From Thermosipho sp. (in: thermotogales) (GTDB taxonomy: Bacteria; Thermotogota; Thermotogae; Thermotogales; Fervidobacteriaceae): a DNA stretch of 51,001 nucleotides. Position 1 is the stretch's first letter. Every line of letters starts with the position of its first letter. Positions 41,084-51,001 of the stretch are shown piece by piece. The position numbers were made by a program, and so were the translations under genes. The stretch is taken from NCBI GenBank assembly GCA_030153605.1, contig JASKLO010000008.1, forward strand, positions 1-51,001, in the 5' to 3' direction. The notes beneath the pieces are model-generated. The model had not been told where the DNA came from. It saw only the letters and a list, made by a program, of their open reading frames with translations, and did not search any database.

Positions 41084-41722
41084 CTAAACTTTCTCTTTTA
41101 ATGTTTCTAACATAGCTTCGAAAATTAAATAAGAGGACGTTGCGCCAGGATCCTGATGACCGATACTTCTATCTCCCAAATAGCTCGCTCTTCCCTTGGT
41201 TGCTTTCATTGGGACAGTATTTTCAACACCTTTTTTAGCCGCAGCAACAGTTGCCTCTAATATTTCAACAGGCGTTCCACCAGACTTTAGCTTTTCTTCA
41301 AATGCTCTTAAAGCAGGAGCTATGGCATCTATCATTGTTTTTTCTCCTTCAGTTGCTTTTCCGCGCATTTGGATACCTTCTAAAGCAGCTTTCAAAGCTT
41401 CTAAAAGTTCATTCATATCAATCTCAAATTTACCATTAAGGGATTTTGAAGCATATAAAAAGGCTGTACCATAAAGTGGCCCACTGGCACCTCCAACTGT
41501 TGAAATTAAAGCCATAGAACAAGTTCTGAGAATAGTTCCTATATCTTTGTCTCTTAGAGTGTCTATAGAAGACATAATTTTACTGAACCCTCTATCCATA
41601 TTTATACCATGATCTCCATCACCTATAGCAGAATCAAGCTGAGTTAAAAATTCTTTATTCTCTTTAATCTTACCAGCAGCTTTTTCTAAAAATTTAATTA
41701 CATCTTGATTATTAATCATCAT
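41084..41722 (-). CDS. dhaL: Dihydroxyacetone kinase subunit DhaL
   Basis: ADP-binding subunit, 212 residues, all-helical. The Mg-ADP site is seen in SAIGDGDHGINMDRG (about residues 30-44), then TVGGASGPLYGTAFLYAS and, near the end, RASYLGDRSIGHQDPGATS. In PTS-type kinases ADP stays bound and is rephosphorylated by DhaM; the neighbouring dhaM supports that type. It starts 29 bases after dhaK. Confidence 0.95.
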   Translation of the reverse strand: MMINNQDVIKFLEKAAGKIKENKEFLTQLDSAIGDGDHGINMDRGFSKIMSSIDTLRDKDIGTILRTCSMALISTVGGASGPLYGTAFLYASKSLNGKFEIDMNELLEALKAALEGIQMRGKATEGEKTMIDAIAPALRAFEEKLKSGGTPVEILEATVAAAKKGVENTVPMKATKGRASYLGDRSIGHQDPGATSSYLIFEAMLETLKEKV

Positions 41723-41751
41723 AATTATCCCTCACTATTTCATTTTCTTAT

Positions 41752-42753
41752 TTAAATTCCCCATCGTAACGCAGGAGTTTTTACAGGTGCATCCCATAAT
41801 TCTTTTAACTCATCATCAAGTTTTAATAATGTTATTGAAACTCCTTGCATTTCCAAGGATGTTATATATCTTCCTACTAACTTTCTAGCAATTTTAATGC
41901 CTTTGCTTTCAAGAATTTTATAAAGTTTCCTATAAACAATATACAATTCGATTTCTGGTGTACCACCCATGCTATTTACAAAGGCCAATACTTCATCGCC
42001 TTCTTTAAAAGGTAAATCTTCAATTATAGCTTCTGCAAGCATTTCAGTTATTTCATCAGCTGATTTAATTTTCATTCTTTCTCTTCCAGGTTCACCATGG
42101 ATTCCTATACCTATTTCCATTTCATCTTCAGCAAGTTCAAAAGTTGGTTTTCCTGCAGCAGGCACAGTACAAGGTGTAAGAGCCATTCCCATACTTCTGC
42201 CCCAACCATTAACCTTTTTACAAAGTTCTGCTAGTTTCTTTAAATCATAACCTTTTTCAGCAGCTGCACCACATATTTTTTCTGCTAAAACAGTTGTCCC
42301 AACTCCACGTCTTCCTTGAGTATAAAGACTATCTTTAACAGCAACATCATCATCAATTATTACATTTTCAACATCAATACCTTCAGCTTTTAACATATCT
42401 GCTGCCATTTCAAAATTCATAACATCACCACTGTAATTTTTAACAATAAATAATATACCAGCACCGCCATGAACTTTTTTTGCTGCCTCATACATTTGAT
42501 CCGGTGTAGGAGATGTAAAAACTTCTCCAGGACATGCTGCATCTAACATTCCGTATCCGACAAATCCTGCATGCATTGGTTCGTGTCCACTTCCTCCACC
42601 TGAAATAATTGCAACTTTGTTATTAACAGGAGCATCCGCACGATATACAAACATTGGTTCATAATTAACTTTGACAATTTCACTCCAAGCAAGTCCTAAT
42701 CCTTCCACTGATTCTTTCACAACATCTTCTGGTTTATTAATTATTTTTTTCAT
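41752..42753 (-). CDS. dhaK: Dihydroxyacetone kinase subunit DhaK
   Basis: Substrate-binding subunit of 333 residues that links dihydroxyacetone covalently to a histidine. Family motifs are [21 protein letters not shown] (about 50-70; 21 residues, cited by position), [17 protein letters not shown] and the substrate His in [16 protein letters not shown] (about 212-227). There is no ATP-binding C-terminal domain, so it needs DhaL and DhaM. Divergent DhaR-type regulators are not present. GGGGGG-type ribosome site upstream of the ATG. Confidence 0.96.
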
Positions 42754-42808
42754 AATAATCCCCCCTATGTTTAAAATTATAAAATTCTAAAAATGCTTTT
42801 TAAATAAA

Positions 42809-42841
42809 GGGGGGGCTAATAACATAAATTATTTCCCCCCC
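42809..42841 (-). terminator. G7/C7 hairpin between glpF and dhaK
   Basis: Seven G (42809-42815) and seven C (42835-42841) can pair, with an inner AATAA/TTATT stem. On the - strand TTTATTT follows. It probably ends part of the glpKF transcript before dhaK. Runs of seven G and seven C are striking in this AT-rich DNA. Confidence 0.65.
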
Positions 42842-42880
42842 AGAAAAAATTTCCTATATTGTATGGACTATTTGTTGAAA

Positions 42881-43684
42881 TTATTCGTTGTTATCTGGTA
42901 AATGCTTTGAAACAAAAATTGCATAAAATGCAACAGCAATAGCAGCACCGACAAGAGGACCTAAAATAGGTGCTATAAACCAGTAGGAACCATCAAAAAG
43001 ACCAGGGGTACCTGCAACTGCACCAAAGAGTCTTGGACCTAAATCACGAGCGGGGTTAATTGCATAACCGCTTGGCCCACCAAGAGTTAAACCAATAGCA
43101 GTCACAAGCATACCTACCATAAATGGACCGATATTTGATTTAACTGCTAAATTCTTTGAATCACCCATTGCAAGAACACCTAAAACAAGAACCATTGTTC
43201 CAATAACCTCTGCAATGAAAGCATTTCCTAGTGAATAAGTACCCATTGCTGCAGCGCTTGTTGCTCCGCCCCAGAATGCTTCCCCAAAAATGGAACCTGG
43301 ACCTGTAGCCCAAACATTAGGCATGCCAGCAGCAACTAAGCCATCATGATATGCAAGCCAAACACCAAAAGCGCCAACAAAAGCACCAAATGTCTGAGCA
43401 ATCCAGTAAGGAATTACTTTGGCCCAAGATAAGCTTTTCTTAATTGCAAGAGCAAAAGTTACTGCAGGATTAATATGGGCTCCTGAAACTCCACCGGTTA
43501 CATAAACTGCTGTCATAACAGCCAAACCCCAACCAAAGGCAATAGTATTCCAGTTATAGGCACCACTTGCCAACCTTGGAGCTAAACCTACATTTGCTAC
43601 AACTCCATCACCCATTAAAATTAGTATCATTGTTCCAAAAAATTCTGCCAGTAATTCACCCATAAGTGTCGGTTTTTTACTCAT
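42881..43684 (-). CDS. glpF: Glycerol uptake facilitator (aquaglyceroporin)
   Basis: Membrane channel of 267 residues for glycerol entry. Both NPA motifs are present: AHINPAVTFAL (about 70-80) and AINPARDLGPRLFG (about 207-220); the D-x-G-P-R after the second is typical of glycerol-conducting members. Six helices plus the two half-helices are seen. It follows glpK by 58 bases in the same transcript. Confidence 0.96.
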   Translation of the reverse strand: MSKKPTLMGELLAEFFGTMILILMGDGVVANVGLAPRLASGAYNWNTIAFGWGLAVMTAVYVTGGVSGAHINPAVTFALAIKKSLSWAKVIPYWIAQTFGAFVGAFGVWLAYHDGLVAAGMPNVWATGPGSIFGEAFWGGATSAAAMGTYSLGNAFIAEVIGTMVLVLGVLAMGDSKNLAVKSNIGPFMVGMLVTAIGLTLGGPSGYAINPARDLGPRLFGAVAGTPGLFDGSYWFIAPILGPLVGAAIAVAFYAIFVSKHLPDNNE

Positions 43685-43742
43685 ATTTACCTCCCCCTAT
43701 ATAATAGTGTGTTAAAAAATCATAGTATTTAAACTTCATTTA

Positions 43743-46007
<2,265 letters not shown>

Positions 46008-46334
46008 TTAATAAATCAAAATTCCTACTATTAAAAACGGGAGACCTGAAACTGACATTGCTAACAAAACATTTTGCCCAGCAGTAACTCCAGCAAAAAT
46101 TATAAAGATAATTGCTGTAAATATAACAATTAAAGCTCCTACTTTTCTATACTTCCAACTAAGCACAAAACCAAAGATTTCAGTCAAAACTATTATCATA
46201 AGTATAATACCTTCAATTTTAGCACTTTCTGTAAGATATTCTTCTCCACCTCCACCCAAAATTTCTCCAAAAAAAATAATTAACCATATTGAGATTACAA
46301 TAATGCCCAATATTCTCCCAATTTTTGTTCTCAT
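46008..46334 (-). CDS. Small membrane protein, unknown function
   Basis: A 108-residue protein with four predicted membrane helices (about 8-25, 42-60, 66-84 and 90-107) and very short loops, one with GEILGGGGEEYL. No motif of a known transporter is seen. A GAGGTGGTG ribosome site precedes the ATG. It lies 52 bases after the secretin-N-domain gene but shows no clear link with it. Confidence 0.7.
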   Translation of the reverse strand: MRTKIGRILGIIVISIWLIIFFGEILGGGGEEYLTESAKIEGIILMIIVLTEIFGFVLSWKYRKVGALIVIFTAIIFIIFAGVTAGQNVLLAMSVSGLPFLIVGILIY

Positions 46335-46386: not shown

Positions 46387-47709
46387 TCACCAAAAGAATC
46401 CTAACATTATCCCAAATACCATTCTACTATCAAAATACATGTTAACATCATAATTTAAATATCTTGTTCCAAGTTCTCCAGAAATTAACAAATCTTTGTT
46501 TATCTCTATTCTTCCTTTTAAAAGAAGATCTTTATTAATTTTATGTGTCATTCCTATGCCAAGCCCAAATTCCAAATTATCTATCAAATATTTCCCATCC
46601 ATACCTCCTAAATTAGAAATACCAATTGGAAAACTTCCAAATAATTCAACAAAAATTGGTTCAAAAAAATATTTATCTTTAGCTGTTAAAATCAAATTCG
46701 TGGCTTGATCTAGTTGAATCATTGCCCCAAGATAAAAATCATCAACTAGCTTCAAATTAAATCCTGCAAAATAATTACTGTCTTTCAAAACAAACACACC
46801 AAAATTCTTATCAGACAAACTTATTTTGAAATCATTTGAAGAATAATATACAAAACTAAATGATTTAGTTGGTATATAATCAATTTTTGATTTTTCTTCT
46901 TCAACTATACTTTTTAGTTCACTTACTTTTATTAAGACAATGAATTTTCCAAAACTTCCATTTAAAACTGATCTATGAATTCCCATCGAAATCTCAGATT
47001 CATAGTTTACGAAATCACCTTGGGATTTAACACTGAAAACCATTTTATTTGATTTAACATCAGCATTTAAAGTTATATCACCTACTGTACTAAATTTAAT
47101 ATCATTTCCAACAAAAAAACCACTAGTATTTGTAACAAATTGAGCTTTTTCTAATACCGGAATTAAATCAAGTAATTTTTGATGATCTAAATTGTATTTT
47201 TTAATATCAGTATTTTTTATATAATATACAACATAGGAAATAATTATATTCTTTTCTTCAGCATCAATATCTTGAAGTTTTTTTAGATATTCCGGCCATA
47301 ATTCATTAGGGCAATAAACCACAACATTATCTCCCACTACATAAGAATGAATAGCTCCTAAACTTTCAACAATCGATTGAGCCGAACGATTTACTGGTTT
47401 ATAAACATGTGGGACAAAATATGAAAATGATGATTCAGAAAAAACAATGTAAACATCATCAATTTTTTCATACGAATAACCAAGAGGAGATAAAATAACT
47501 TTTAATACAGTTTCAAGAGAAACATCGTATAAAGTTACATTTACCTCGCCTGTTAAATCATTAGAAAAAATTATTGTTGAGTTATAAAGTTGTCCAAGTT
47601 CCATTAGAACATCCTTGATATCAGTGTTTTGAAAACTGACATCATTAGTTTTAGAAAATAAAGTTAACATCAAAAAAGACAGAATAAATATCACAAGTAT
47701 TTTTTTCAT
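46387..47709 (-). CDS. Exported STN-domain protein with possible outer-membrane barrel
   Basis: A 440-residue exported protein. The signal peptide is MKKILVIFILSFLMLTLFSK. Residues about 22-90 form a secretin/TonB short N-terminal (STN) domain: TDIKDVLMELGQLYNSTIIF, then LYDVSLETVLKVILSPLGY. The same domain is in the secretin encoded just upstream, and the two are clearly related over this part. After a second small domain (about 95-150) there is no secretin core; the last 200 residues look like alternating beta strands and end in FGIMLGFFW, an aromatic C-terminus as in outer-membrane barrels. Barrel insertion is inference. The ATG overlaps the restored secretin stop. Confidence 0.7.
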   Translation of the reverse strand: MKKILVIFILSFLMLTLFSKTNDVSFQNTDIKDVLMELGQLYNSTIIFSNDLTGEVNVTLYDVSLETVLKVILSPLGYSYEKIDDVYIVFSESSFSYFVPHVYKPVNRSAQSIVESLGAIHSYVVGDNVVVYCPNELWPEYLKKLQDIDAEEKNIIISYVVYYIKNTDIKKYNLDHQKLLDLIPVLEKAQFVTNTSGFFVGNDIKFSTVGDITLNADVKSNKMVFSVKSQGDFVNYESEISMGIHRSVLNGSFGKFIVLIKVSELKSIVEEEKSKIDYIPTKSFSFVYYSSNDFKISLSDKNFGVFVLKDSNYFAGFNLKLVDDFYLGAMIQLDQATNLILTAKDKYFFEPIFVELFGSFPIGISNLGGMDGKYLIDNLEFGLGIGMTHKINKDLLLKGRIEINKDLLISGELGTRYLNYDVNMYFDSRMVFGIMLGFFW

Positions 47710-47758
47710 TTAGCATCACCTACCAATTTAGCTTGAATTACTATTATTACATTTTTTT
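47706..47758 (-). other. Frameshift site and displaced secretin C-terminus
   Basis: Read on the - strand, ATGCAT is followed by A7 (47752-47758) and TGTAATAATAG, so the in-frame product stops at once. With one extra A (or a -1 slip) the frame reads HKKNVIIVIQAKLVGDAK and stops at 47706-47708, with TGA overlapping the next ATG as ATGA. This matches the missing last strand of a secretin. Confidence 0.8.
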
Positions 47759-48832
47759 ATGCATTTCATATCTGGTATTTTTAAACAATTTTCCAAGAAT
47801 TGGTACATCTTTTAATCCGGGGATCCCTCCATCAATTTTTGAAAATGTTTCAAAAGATATCCCGGCTATGTAATATGGTTTATCATATTGAACATCTACA
47901 TTAGTTTCAAGCAATGAACCTATAGGATTATCATTATAACCATCACTCATAGCGGATTCAACAACTGTTTTTATATACATATTTATATGATCTAGAAATA
48001 CATTTCCTGAAATTGTCACTTCTGTTGTTAGTCTTCTCTCAACATAAGTATTATTAGTCTCATTAGTAATTCTCAAACCAATAGTTGTATATCCAGAAAT
48101 TTTTGAGGTTGAACCAGACTTTAATAATAAGGTTCCTTCGCCTAAAACTTTTGCATTCCCTGATTCAACAAGTGAATCAAGAAGGAAAACAATTTCATAA
48201 GACAAAGGATTTAAAACAGCAGAAATACCATTTGAAGAATAATTAATATCAAATCCTTCAGATCCTTCAGAATTCCATGACCAATTAATTCCAAATTTCT
48301 CAAAATCCTTTTCATCGACCTCAAATATTTTTACGTTGACTTCTGCTGTATTTACTTGCTTATCAACAAATGTTATGGTTTCAGCAATTTGTGAAGCAAT
48401 TTTGGGAGGAGCATAAATTAAAATTTGATTTTCATTAGGGGTTCTGTAAATATAATTTTGCATAATTTTTGGTAAAGCGTTAGCTATATCCTCAAAAGTT
48501 GTATAGTACAAATTTATTAAATATCTACTAGAAATTAAACCAAATCCAGGACTGTCAGGGTTAGCAGTTCCTACAAAATACACATTATCAATTTTAGTCC
48601 AATAATACCCCAATGGAAGAAGCATCAAATCCAGAGCTTTTTCTAAAGAAACATCATAAACTTCCACTGTAATAAAACCTGAAACTAGTGGATCATATAA
48701 AATTGAAACTCCTTCTTGCATAGAAATCTGACTCAAAGCATCCCTTATATCTGTTTGATAAAAGTACACATCAACACCAAAAAAAGTTACAAGCAAAAAT
48801 AAAAAACTCATTAAAACCAATATTTTTTTCAT
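47747..48832 (-). CDS. Short secretin (GspD/PilQ-like), C-terminus frameshifted
   Basis: Outer-membrane secretin-family protein, 361 residues as read. After a signal peptide (MKKILVLMSFLFLLVTFFG) there is an STN domain (about 22-90), one N1/KH-like domain (about 100-160) and the secretin core, with VNVKIFEVDEKDFEKFGINW, the gate region and GIPGLKDVPILGKLFKNT, the hallmark end motif. Family members then have a final strand such as ELIIFITP; here the frame ends in HKKM. A one-base slip at A7 restores VIIVIQAKLV. It is shorter than most secretins, with one N domain. The start overlaps the previous stop as TAATG. It probably forms a pore for export or assembly. Confidence 0.85.
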   Translation of the reverse strand: MKKILVLMSFLFLLVTFFGVDVYFYQTDIRDALSQISMQEGVSILYDPLVSGFITVEVYDVSLEKALDLMLLPLGYYWTKIDNVYFVGTANPDSPGFGLISSRYLINLYYTTFEDIANALPKIMQNYIYRTPNENQILIYAPPKIASQIAETITFVDKQVNTAEVNVKIFEVDEKDFEKFGINWSWNSEGSEGFDINYSSNGISAVLNPLSYEIVFLLDSLVESGNAKVLGEGTLLLKSGSTSKISGYTTIGLRITNETNNTYVERRLTTEVTISGNVFLDHINMYIKTVVESAMSDGYNDNPIGSLLETNVDVQYDKPYYIAGISFETFSKIDGGIPGLKDVPILGKLFKNTRYEMHKKM

Positions 48833-50238
48833 TATTTCACATCCCCTACGATTTTCTTTTTATCGAATGTTTCATCTCCATACAGTCTATACAGTATAAA
48901 TGTACTATTCTTTGCAATTTCGTTGTATCCTGATGGAATAACAAACTTTTTAGTCTCTTTTGGAAAAAGTACAAAAACTTTTGTTAAATCTGAACTTTGA
49001 AGCGGATCCTGTTTAATAATTTTTCCTTCTAAAATAGTATTTCCAGTATTTTCAACATTAACTATAAAAGTGTCTGTTGAAACATCAGATACAAAAGTAT
49101 TACATTCAGTAATTAAATTCCCATTTCTTAAAACAACTACAGGTTCTTTAAAGAGTAAAATATCCTTATCAGAAGTTATGTTTATTTTATAAATATTATC
49201 CCCATCTTCTAAAGTAGTATTTCTCGAATCAAATTTAACAAAGCCATTTATTTTAGTGTATGGGAACAAACGAATCTTGGAGGGAAAAATTTCTAAAGCA
49301 TCATTTTCAGTTTTCAGGCTAAATTCTAATGATTCTGGAGAAAGGTTTTGAATATTTACTTTAAAATTCTCTATTGTTCTTTGAACATCAATCAGAACTA
49401 TATACGGATCTATCAAAACTGCTACTTCCTTTGGTTGTTCACCCACTATAGTAATTTTTTTAAAGTTTGTAACCCGAATACCTTGAGAAACCCCATCTAA
49501 CTGAATTTCAAACTCTCCTCGTGGAAAAACAAAAGGAACAAAATACTCAAAAGTAGCTGTCTGTTCTGGAAAAACAACAAAAGTAGTATTATCAAGTGGT
49601 AAAGAAGTAATTATTCTGTTTATTTCTCTTGATATGAGTCTAATTTCCCCATTGACTGCTAAAACTGCATTCCCATTATTTCTAACTTCCAAGTCTAAAA
49701 CTGTTCCAAAATTTCCATATTTTTCTAAAAAAGTTTCAGAAGCATTTGAAGTTAAATCAAAAATTTTTACATCTAGAATTTCTGGCCTAATAACTTTTTG
49801 AAATGGAAAATCAAGAATAATTACAGAAACGTAGTCAAAAACTGTTTCAAAAACATCAGTTTTACCACCTTTTTGTTTAAAGTGAACAGCACCAAAAGCT
49901 TGAGCCCCACGGAAATCCCTGGGAATATTTATTGTGATTTCATAATCCTTTGATTCGCCCGGTTGAAGAATCAGTTTTGTACCTTCAACACTTATCCAAT
50001 TTTTTATACTGTATTTATAATTTTCCACTTCATATAAATATGTAGTTCCTTCAATTATAAAATCAGTAAATTCAACATCCACCTCGGCTATTCCTGCATT
50101 TGGATTTGAAACATTTATGCTCAATTTTAATTCATCTTTATTTGGTTCTACCTCAATTCTATTTACAAGAGGATAAATAGTCACAGTAAAAGAAATAATA
50201 CCAACAAAAATTATTAATAAAGAAAAAAACTTTTTCAT
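48832..50238 (-). CDS. Exported Ig-like/chaperone-like protein (DUF916/COG1470 type)
   Basis: Exported protein of about 468 residues. A signal peptide (MKKFFSLLIIFVGIISFTVT) is followed by beta-sandwich domains. The first has ILQPGESKDYEITINIPRDF and then GAQAFGAVHFKQKGG, which resembles the conserved part of DUF916 and pilus-chaperone-like Ig folds. A second and third similar region carry LEVRNNGNAVLAVNGEI and FIVNVENTGNTILEGKI. No membrane helix at the end. It could be a periplasmic chaperone or a scaffold for the small proteins encoded upstream. ATG at 50238 is used because GGGGTGA precedes it. First gene of the secretin operon. Confidence 0.75.
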   Translation of the reverse strand: MKKFFSLLIIFVGIISFTVTIYPLVNRIEVEPNKDELKLSINVSNPNAGIAEVDVEFTDFIIEGTTYLYEVENYKYSIKNWISVEGTKLILQPGESKDYEITINIPRDFRGAQAFGAVHFKQKGGKTDVFETVFDYVSVIILDFPFQKVIRPEILDVKIFDLTSNASETFLEKYGNFGTVLDLEVRNNGNAVLAVNGEIRLISREINRIITSLPLDNTTFVVFPEQTATFEYFVPFVFPRGEFEIQLDGVSQGIRVTNFKKITIVGEQPKEVAVLIDPYIVLIDVQRTIENFKVNIQNLSPESLEFSLKTENDALEIFPSKIRLFPYTKINGFVKFDSRNTTLEDGDNIYKINITSDKDILLFKEPVVVLRNGNLITECNTFVSDVSTDTFIVNVENTGNTILEGKIIKQDPLQSSDLTKVFVLFPKETKKFVIPSGYNEIAKNSTFILYRLYGDETFDKKKIVGDVK

Positions 50239-50272
50239 ATTTTCACCCCATATATTCAATTCATCTATTTTT

Positions 50273-50281
50273 ATTATATCA
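50273..50281 (-). promoter_or_regulatory. Extended -10 promoter of the secretin operon
   Basis: On the - strand TGA-TATAAT (TATAAT at 50273-50278) forms an extended -10 element, about 35 bases before the ATG at 50238. No -35 match. It lies after the terminator of the small-protein genes, so the secretin operon has its own start. Confidence 0.55.
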
Positions 50282-50341
50282 CAGATATTCCAATAATGAT
50301 TAAATTTTATAAACCTCAAATTATATTTACCTAATTATTAC

Positions 50342-50369
50342 AAAAAAGTTGGCCCCATTAGGGGCCAAC
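50342..50369 (-). terminator. Intrinsic terminator of the small exported-protein genes
   Basis: GTTGGCCCC (50348-50356) and its perfect partner (50361-50369) with an ATTA loop. On the - strand six T follow (50342-50347). Confidence 0.92.
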
Positions 50370-50386
50370 AACTAATTTTTCATTTT

Positions 50387-50848
50387 TTAAAATGTTACTG
50401 TTGGTTGAAAAGTAATTCTTAACGTTACTGTATAATCACCTGCTGGTGTATCTGGATCGATACTTGTAATTGAAACTCCAATTAAATATTCACCGTCTTC
50501 AATTGGATTAGTTGGGACAAATGGTACTCCATCTTTTGTGACATATATCGTTCCAGTTATATAAGTAGCAAGTCCACCCCAGTCTGCCCATGCTGATACT
50601 GTCACTGGTGCATTTGAATCAAGTGTAAATGATAAAAGATCTACATTCTCTGGGGCTTGTTCATAGTCACAAATATTGTATGACGGACCTATTATCCATT
50701 GATAATCTAAATCCATCCATTGGTGGACATATATTGTGATTGTTGAATTTAAAGTATAGCTCTCAAATTCACAACCAGGAACATGTACCACATCAGCAAA
50801 AATAATAAATGCAAATAAAACCAAAATTCCAATTAATATTTTCCTCAT
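50387..50848 (-). CDS. Small exported beta-rich protein, surface-subunit candidate
   Basis: A 153-residue exported protein. The signal peptide MRKILIGILVLFAFIIFAD is followed by a beta-rich domain with two cysteines (VPGCEFES and YNICDYEQ) that might form a disulfide. The end reads PAGDYTVTLRITFQPTVTF, a pattern as in subunits of spore-coat-U or WxL-like surface proteins. The next protein upstream, cut by the window, ends in a very similar way (AGVYHLPVVFTFNPTVSW), so they are paralogues. AAGGAGGGG precedes the ATG. It is probably a surface subunit or cell-wall-bound protein; the family is not firmly recognised. Confidence 0.7.
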   Translation of the reverse strand: MRKILIGILVLFAFIIFADVVHVPGCEFESYTLNSTITIYVHQWMDLDYQWIIGPSYNICDYEQAPENVDLLSFTLDSNAPVTVSAWADWGGLATYITGTIYVTKDGVPFVPTNPIEDGEYLIGVSITSIDPDTPAGDYTVTLRITFQPTVTF

Positions 50849-50904
50849 AAATAAACCCCTCCTTTTAATTAATTTTTGTTTTACTCATAATTTTTTACCA
50901 AATT

Positions 50905-51001
50905 TTACCAACTAACTGTTGGATTAAATGTAAATACAACAGGCAAATGATATACTCCAGCGACTGCATCTTTGTCAACTGTCAATGTATCCATCGATAT
51001 T
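50905..51001 (-). CDS. Partial exported protein, paralogue of the next gene
   Basis: Only the last 31 codons are in the window. The text ends with TVDKDAVAGVYHLPVVFTF and then NPTVSW and stop at 50905-50907. The V-x-A-G-x-Y-x-(V/L)-x-(L/V)-x-(F/I)-T-F-x-P-T-V-x-aromatic pattern matches the end of the 153-residue protein. The 56-base gap to the next start suggests co-transcription. Confidence 0.7.
   Translation of the reverse strand, partial: ISMDTLTVDKDAVAGVYHLPVVFTFNPTVSW

Follow-up and report, generated by a model that had tools for sequence, protein, structure and literature searches.

The window analysed here (51,001 nucleotides, the entire contig C35 of a Thermosipho-like genome) ends in a minus-strand cassette at 46387-51001. 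In order from the contig end inward, it encodes two small exported proteins (SP1, cut by the contig end, and SP2), an exported protein with multiple immunoglobulin (Ig)-like domains (IG), a minimal secretin (SEC), and a secretin paralogue with a predicted outer-membrane barrel (BAR). Sequence comparison shows that IG, SEC, and BAR make up a conserved operon whose genes mostly overlap, and we consider the chances about even that the cassette is an ATPase-independent surface-assembly pathway for SP subunits. All of the genes named in the original prediction, which was made from the letters of the window, are present on this strand: two small exported proteins, an Ig-like protein, a short secretin, and a protein joining a secretin N-terminal (STN) domain to a barrel.

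The recurrent order of IG and SEC exceeds chance. In 36 of 37 loci, the gene immediately upstream of SEC on its strand is IG, most often with a 4-bp overlap; a further gene follows SEC on that strand in all 37, overlapping it in 35. This third gene is BAR in 25 loci, and another barrel-type protein in the remaining loci looked at. The original prediction had left room for a neighbourhood peculiar to this contig; instead, it is kept in relatives (metagenome-assembled genomes of Thermosipho) and through much of the phylum. Distances within the IG, SEC, and BAR families correlate (r 0.90-0.95), with none of 2000 permutations giving as high a value (IG vs. SEC, r 0.94), and shared ancestry contributes to this correlation. 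In genomes with two cassettes (e.g., G012, G053, and G079), each cassette groups with counterparts from other genomes.

The phylum search covered 103 Thermotogota genomes, with IG also sought by tblastn against plasmids, and with 14 controls for the named families. SEC of the cassette type (a count that omits matches to long PilQ-like secretins and BAR-only matches) was found in 59 of the 103, and full-length IG in 57. All 57 genomes with full IG also have SEC, and none has full IG alone; in the two SEC-only genomes (G056 and G062), SEC lies within ~20 bases of a contig start. The cassette is absent from about 44 of the 103, well-assembled ones included, and from ~33 of the 82 good-quality genomes. 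In G024, G027, G029, G033, and G075, shorter proteins match IG over its first two Ig domains alone, and some are interrupted by an in-frame stop; the degenerate IG fragment in G075 suggests loss of the cassette there.

SP-family genes adjoin the cassette in most loci, often two to four in each, either upstream or downstream in the opposite direction, and SARP/BTAD-like and two-component regulators are recurrent neighbours. A listing of the 25 commonest of 96 families, drawn from 78 neighbour proteins in relatives, contains no assembly ATPase, platform, pilin, pseudopilin, prepilin peptidase, type II secretion system (T2SS), or pilus families. The T2SSE-type ATPases of this genome are on two other contigs (C21 and C29), and a long PilQ-like secretin is on a third (C32), also apart from the cassette. 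The lack of accompanying ATPase, platform, prepilin peptidase, and pseudopilin genes, remarked on in the original prediction, extends to the relatives as far as the families listed show.

IG (48832..50238, minus strand, 468 aa) is an exported multi-Ig protein; its more likely start is the ATG at 50238, which matches relatives and is favoured over a TTG at 50319. By profile comparison, it is a homologue of the WxLIP family. A profile of 38 IG sequences, searched against the PDB, matched Enterococcus EfmWxLIP1 (9i1y, 9i25) over both of its Ig domains, PGBD and HBD in tandem, at an E-value of 3.8e-9, with the next unrelated match at 0.006. The Pfam WxLIP_PGBD family matches 20 of the 38 members (best 2.6e-8), and PF06030 scores above its cut-off in seven Thermotogota genomes, as well as matching the named control Thermotoga maritima. 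Alignment of IG by hhalign with a comparison profile built from eight WxLIP proteins from Lactobacillales plasmids gave 98.1% (1.1e-13, 249 columns), against 0.2-2.8% for unrelated-protein controls. The IG in the window has no C-terminal membrane helix of the WxLIP type: by eye, its end (...YGDETFDKKKIVGDVK) has no hydrophobic segment. The PapD family does not appear among the Pfam matches of IG, and the comparison with FimC gave only 0.2%. A record labelled as a Klebsiella pneumoniae plasmid (CP069367.1, 101758-102465) encodes a WxLIP 74% identical to that of Enterococcus, which is probably contamination or mislabelling.

The SP proteins begin with signal-peptide-like segments, and have no usable matches in Pfam, NCBIfam, or PDB sequence searches. 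SP2 (50387..50848, minus strand) is a small exported protein of 153 aa, predicted to be a beta-sandwich; of SP1, only the 3′ end of the gene is in the window (50905..51001, minus strand, sequence ...AVAGVYHLPVVFTFNPTVSW, with a profile match at 50908-50997). The AlphaFold2 model, built from 44 sequences, has six main strands, with a predicted local distance difference test score (pLDDT) of 85.5 and a predicted template-modelling score (pTM) of 0.68. In this model, residues 31-44, alternately polar and apolar, are unpaired, and the segment 32-46 (TLNSTITIYVHQWMD in SP2) is the best conserved outside the signal peptide (V41, Q43, and W44). The next best conserved are residues 71-85 and the C-terminal PAGxY...TFxP (PAGxYxxxxxxTFxPTVxF in SP2). 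This C-terminal motif is conserved across SPs; the original prediction had seen a shared C-terminal pattern in the small proteins of the window. SP is thus predicted to be an incomplete Ig sandwich whose conserved N-terminal strand is unpaired, and a strand that is conserved yet unpaired is what a donor strand would show. The top Foldseek matches of the model in the PDB are almost exclusively donor-strand polymers: CfaB, the Sulfolobus thread protein Saci_0406, the Pyrodictium cannula, FimI/FimA, Caf1, and CsuE. This likeness, which belongs to the model, is a strong lead rather than proof. Two more familiar identities were tried and rejected. SP as a WxL domain found no PF13731 match above cut-off in the 103 genomes (a Lactococcus control was positive) and an hhalign value of 5.8% against WxL; IG as a FimC-type chaperone, with SP as FimA, found no sequence match.

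SEC (47747..48832, minus strand) is a short secretin with an N0 domain, one further N-domain, and a secretin domain (PF00263, above cut-off at an E-value of 1.6e-10; STN, 1.1e-10), an architecture shared by its family at ~360-410 aa. Its listed end (...HKKM) arises from an A-run near 47750 (window 47747-47760) that is one base short, at the cost of the last ~13 residues of the family; its relatives continue ...NVIVIIEAKL and keep a 4-bp overlap with BAR. The shortening is either a sequencing error or a real change.

BAR (46387..47709, minus strand) has N0 and N1 domains, a middle region (154-265) predicted to be beta-rich, and a C-terminal region (283-439) of ~12 strands, predicted to form an outer-membrane barrel and modelled with pLDDT mostly >90 (85.4 for the whole protein, pTM 0.52). 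Its STN/N0 domain is detected at an E-value of 5.5e-7, with a profile match to PilQ in the PDB at 3e-12 and one to GspD as well; over its first 180 positions, it matches SEC at 99.9% (hhalign, 2e-35). PF00263 does not match BAR, and Pfam assigns no usher family to any protein in the window. Foldseek matches include a designed transmembrane barrel (5.5e-6), porins, and PilQ. Sequence and model together point to a secretin paralogue that ends in a predicted outer-membrane barrel. The partner found after SEC in Thermotoga-type loci (type A4) has no N0 or N1 domain and no detectable profile match to BAR; its first half matches the SEC secretin domain (85.9%, 5e-6), and its last residue is aromatic, like those of outer-membrane barrels. 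A partner in another branch (type A6) weakly matches the C-terminal region of BAR (87%). Throughout, then, the gene after SEC appears to encode a protein of the barrel type, in many cases one that includes a part derived from secretins. In three loci (L061, L063, and L071), IG with BAR, or BAR alone, is found beside response regulators with SEC absent; judging from these, BAR may work without a secretin in some lineages.

How such proteins could assemble subunits is suggested by the WxLIP hairpin, whose predicted role in WxL clusters is to complete the WxL sandwich by strand insertion (PMC10599100); by analogy, IG may lend a strand to SP. We infer that, after export by Sec, each SP would be completed and held in the periplasm by a beta-strand from IG, passed on at the outer membrane to SEC and BAR via their N0/N1 domains, and threaded through this pair or anchored at it. 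On the surface, the N-terminal strand of each SP would complete the next, giving a fibre. The energy would come from folding and strand exchange, and the lack of an ATPase would thereby be accounted for. Chaperone-usher pili likewise need no ATPase. The original prediction had guessed at a chaperone and its subunits, and this part has gained independent support from the homology of IG to WxLIP and from the resemblance of the SP model to donor-strand fibre subunits; passage through, or anchoring at, the secretin and barrel pair is a putative further step.

The expression layout suggests a higher output of SPs than of the machinery, as for structural subunits. An intrinsic terminator (50348..50369, minus strand), with a 9-bp GC-rich stem and a T-run, lies at the junction of SP2 and IG, and with a terminator in this position SPs are expected in excess of IG, SEC, and BAR. 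Hairpins of -11 kcal/mol or lower follow the last SP in 13 of 25 SP-IG junctions, 35-86 nt into the junction and with unrelated sequences, while only 1 of 25 sets of five shuffles reached this value. Matches to sigma-70 promoters were no more numerous than expected by chance.

Several observations weigh against an assembly pathway of this kind. The best Foldseek E-value for SP is 1.6e-3, the rest being weaker, with TM-scores of about 0.3-0.44, and the model includes the signal peptide. Sequence comparison detects no similarity of SP to WxL (hhalign 5.8%) or to FimA. Ig-like domains are generic, and other Ig families match IG in Pfam at E-values similar to those of WxLIP. SEC is short (360-390 aa), has no known pilotin or inner-membrane partner, and might form no classical gated channel. 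In some lineages, other proteins take the place of BAR, and two loci (L061 and L063) carry IG and BAR without SEC. Finally, no fibre of this kind in Thermotogota was found in the open-access literature searched. The literature search also found no thread-like donor-strand pili in thermophiles, and the only match holding both DUF916 and Thermotoga concerns metalloproteins.

Of the alternatives, the one that survives best, although we think it unlikely, is that the cassette is the diderm counterpart of a WxL surface complex, with IG and SP statically adhesive or bound to peptidoglycan or the outer membrane, SEC and BAR a mere anchor, and no fibre or polymerisation. That IG is a WxLIP homologue is in keeping with this, as is the composition of WxL clusters, in which one WxLIP accompanies small WxL proteins with no need for a secretion machine (PMC10599100). 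However, no WxL domain scored above cut-off in the Thermotogota genomes, SP is unlike WxL, and the IG in the window ends without the membrane helix found at the C-terminus of WxLIP. That nearly all loci have an outer-membrane pair overlapping IG also suggests a role in conveyance, and the SP model matches subunits that polymerise.

It is less probable again that SEC and BAR are a channel through which soluble cargo is secreted: with IG as their chaperone, SPs would be released as freely diffusing binding proteins, inhibitors, or bacteriocin-like molecules. The SPs are highly variable, many loci have two to four of them, and SARP/BTAD or two-component regulators lie alongside, as might be expected of such products; their conserved N-terminal strand and C-terminal motif nevertheless fit a common mode of binding or assembly better than a set of diverse free products.

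There is little to recommend a sensing or uptake system, in which the STN/N0 domain and barrel of BAR would make up a TonB-dependent or porin-type receptor and the SPs would be extracellular binding proteins. The STN domain also occurs in TonB-dependent receptors, as its Pfam name reflects, and porins are among the Foldseek matches of the barrel. The N0-N1 region, however, aligns with the neighbouring SEC and with PilQ/GspD, and its match to a TonB-type receptor's signalling domain (2a02) has an E-value of only 0.35. BAR also has no plug domain, and no transport genes recur nearby among the families listed.

A structural or assembly role in the toga, the possibility raised in the original prediction, now appears slightly more doubtful still. 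The hosts bear a toga, and the proteins are exported and beta-rich, but the toga defines the whole lineage, with OmpA in each Thermotogales species and OmpB in nearly all (PMC3387000). The cassette, present in 57-59 of 103 genomes and missing from ~44, does not approach the near-universality of OmpA and OmpB. No secretin is mentioned in the 2012 study of the toga. As for the idea that the genes are remnants of an ordinary T2SS or type IV pilus locus, the secretin-family domains of SEC and BAR are genuine, but this origin is scarcely credible and was rejected: SEC scores 57 bits against GspD and PilQ model cut-offs of 351 and 284, the long PilQ-like secretin and ATPases of this genome are encoded elsewhere, and no T2SS or pilus families are listed around the cassettes. 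Neither ordinary T2SS nor S-layer components, either of which could have accounted for the proteins of the original prediction, match them.

The preferred reading, an ATPase-independent assembly pathway, shares features with several known systems. Like the WxL clusters of Firmicutes (a WxLIP, or DUF916/DUF3324, protein with small and large WxL proteins), the cassette has a homologous two-Ig WxLIP beside small exported proteins; it differs in having no WxL domain, a longer IG, an added secretin and secretin-barrel protein, and a diderm host. Chaperone-usher pili (FimC/FimD/FimA, Csu, and Caf1) are alike in outline, with Ig-like subunits, an Ig-like multi-domain periplasmic partner, an outer-membrane pore, and no ATPase, all by prediction in the case of the cassette, which has a secretin and a ~12-strand barrel instead of an usher. 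The archaeal threads (Saci_0406) and Pyrodictium cannulae are built of Sec-exported, donor-strand-joined subunits with a fold similar to that predicted for SP, in thermophilic hosts, and the thread gene has no definite chaperone or usher nearby (PMC9715654); those hosts, however, have no outer membrane, and their subunits have shown no sequence similarity to SP. With the secretins of T2SS and type IV pili (GspD and PilQ), and with other short secretins, SEC shares its N0, N-domain, and secretin domain, and BAR its N0 and N1. Unlike those systems, the cassette has no ATPase, platform, pilins, or peptidase, and its secretin adjoins a secretin-barrel paralogue.

A further locus, on a Deinococcus psychrotolerans plasmid (WP_124874126 to WP_124874132, all hypothetical; NZ_CP034185.1, 7901-13647), encodes a two-Ig protein that matches IG (hhalign 99.3%, 1e-20) between two small exported proteins, followed by a 1058-aa protein containing Ig, SdrD_B-like, and beta-rich regions, possibly usher-like, in place of SEC and BAR. 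This hints at a broader family. It is conceivable, though we would put the chances at rather less than even, that the Thermotogota cassette represents a new class of outer-membrane assembly, in which a WxLIP-type chaperone passes donor-strand subunits to a secretin/secretin-barrel pair to build fibres without an ATPase. This would be the first dedicated export or fibre system specific to Thermotogota, with WxLIP an ancient strand-lending chaperone employed in monoderms (with WxL), Thermotogota, and Deinococcus with different outer-membrane partners.

At the contig end, the remainder of SP1 is found on another contig (C25:3-572), whose end overlaps that of the window exactly by 99 bases; beyond SP1 on that contig is a divergently oriented gene for a winged-helix regulator. 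The joined layout is the same as the intact arrangement in a relative (L005/L038). Near-identical SP duplicates can occur in one locus with other genes between them: the SP2 copies are identical in L040 (5530-7644) and one residue apart in L005/L038 (1512-6406). Contigs also break in or near SP genes in G083 and G079, as here between C25 and C35, consistent with SP repeats. On the other side of the cassette, BAR is followed by a gene for a small membrane protein (46008..46334, minus strand) that is DUF7670-like (E-value 4e-6), occurs in this position only in Thermosipho (six loci, one genus), and is peripheral to the cassette. Directly downstream (41084-45254) is an ordinary glycerol/dihydroxyacetone operon, with dihydroxyacetone kinase subunits, an aquaporin-type channel, and glycerol kinase.

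When secretion systems were surveyed, the heat-loving Thermotogae stood out as the sole diderm clade without any typical one, and it was suggested that they may have evolved their own (PMC4793230), which makes a lineage-specific system plausible. Judged against the open-access literature searched, the novelty here lies in the system, its parts being distant members of known families. The cassette is a concrete, genetically coherent, and testable candidate for a system of the Thermotogota's own. If the proposed pathway is correct, it would connect outer-membrane biology with WxLIP, a poorly understood Firmicutes family, and provide a case of a secretin used without an assembly ATPase.

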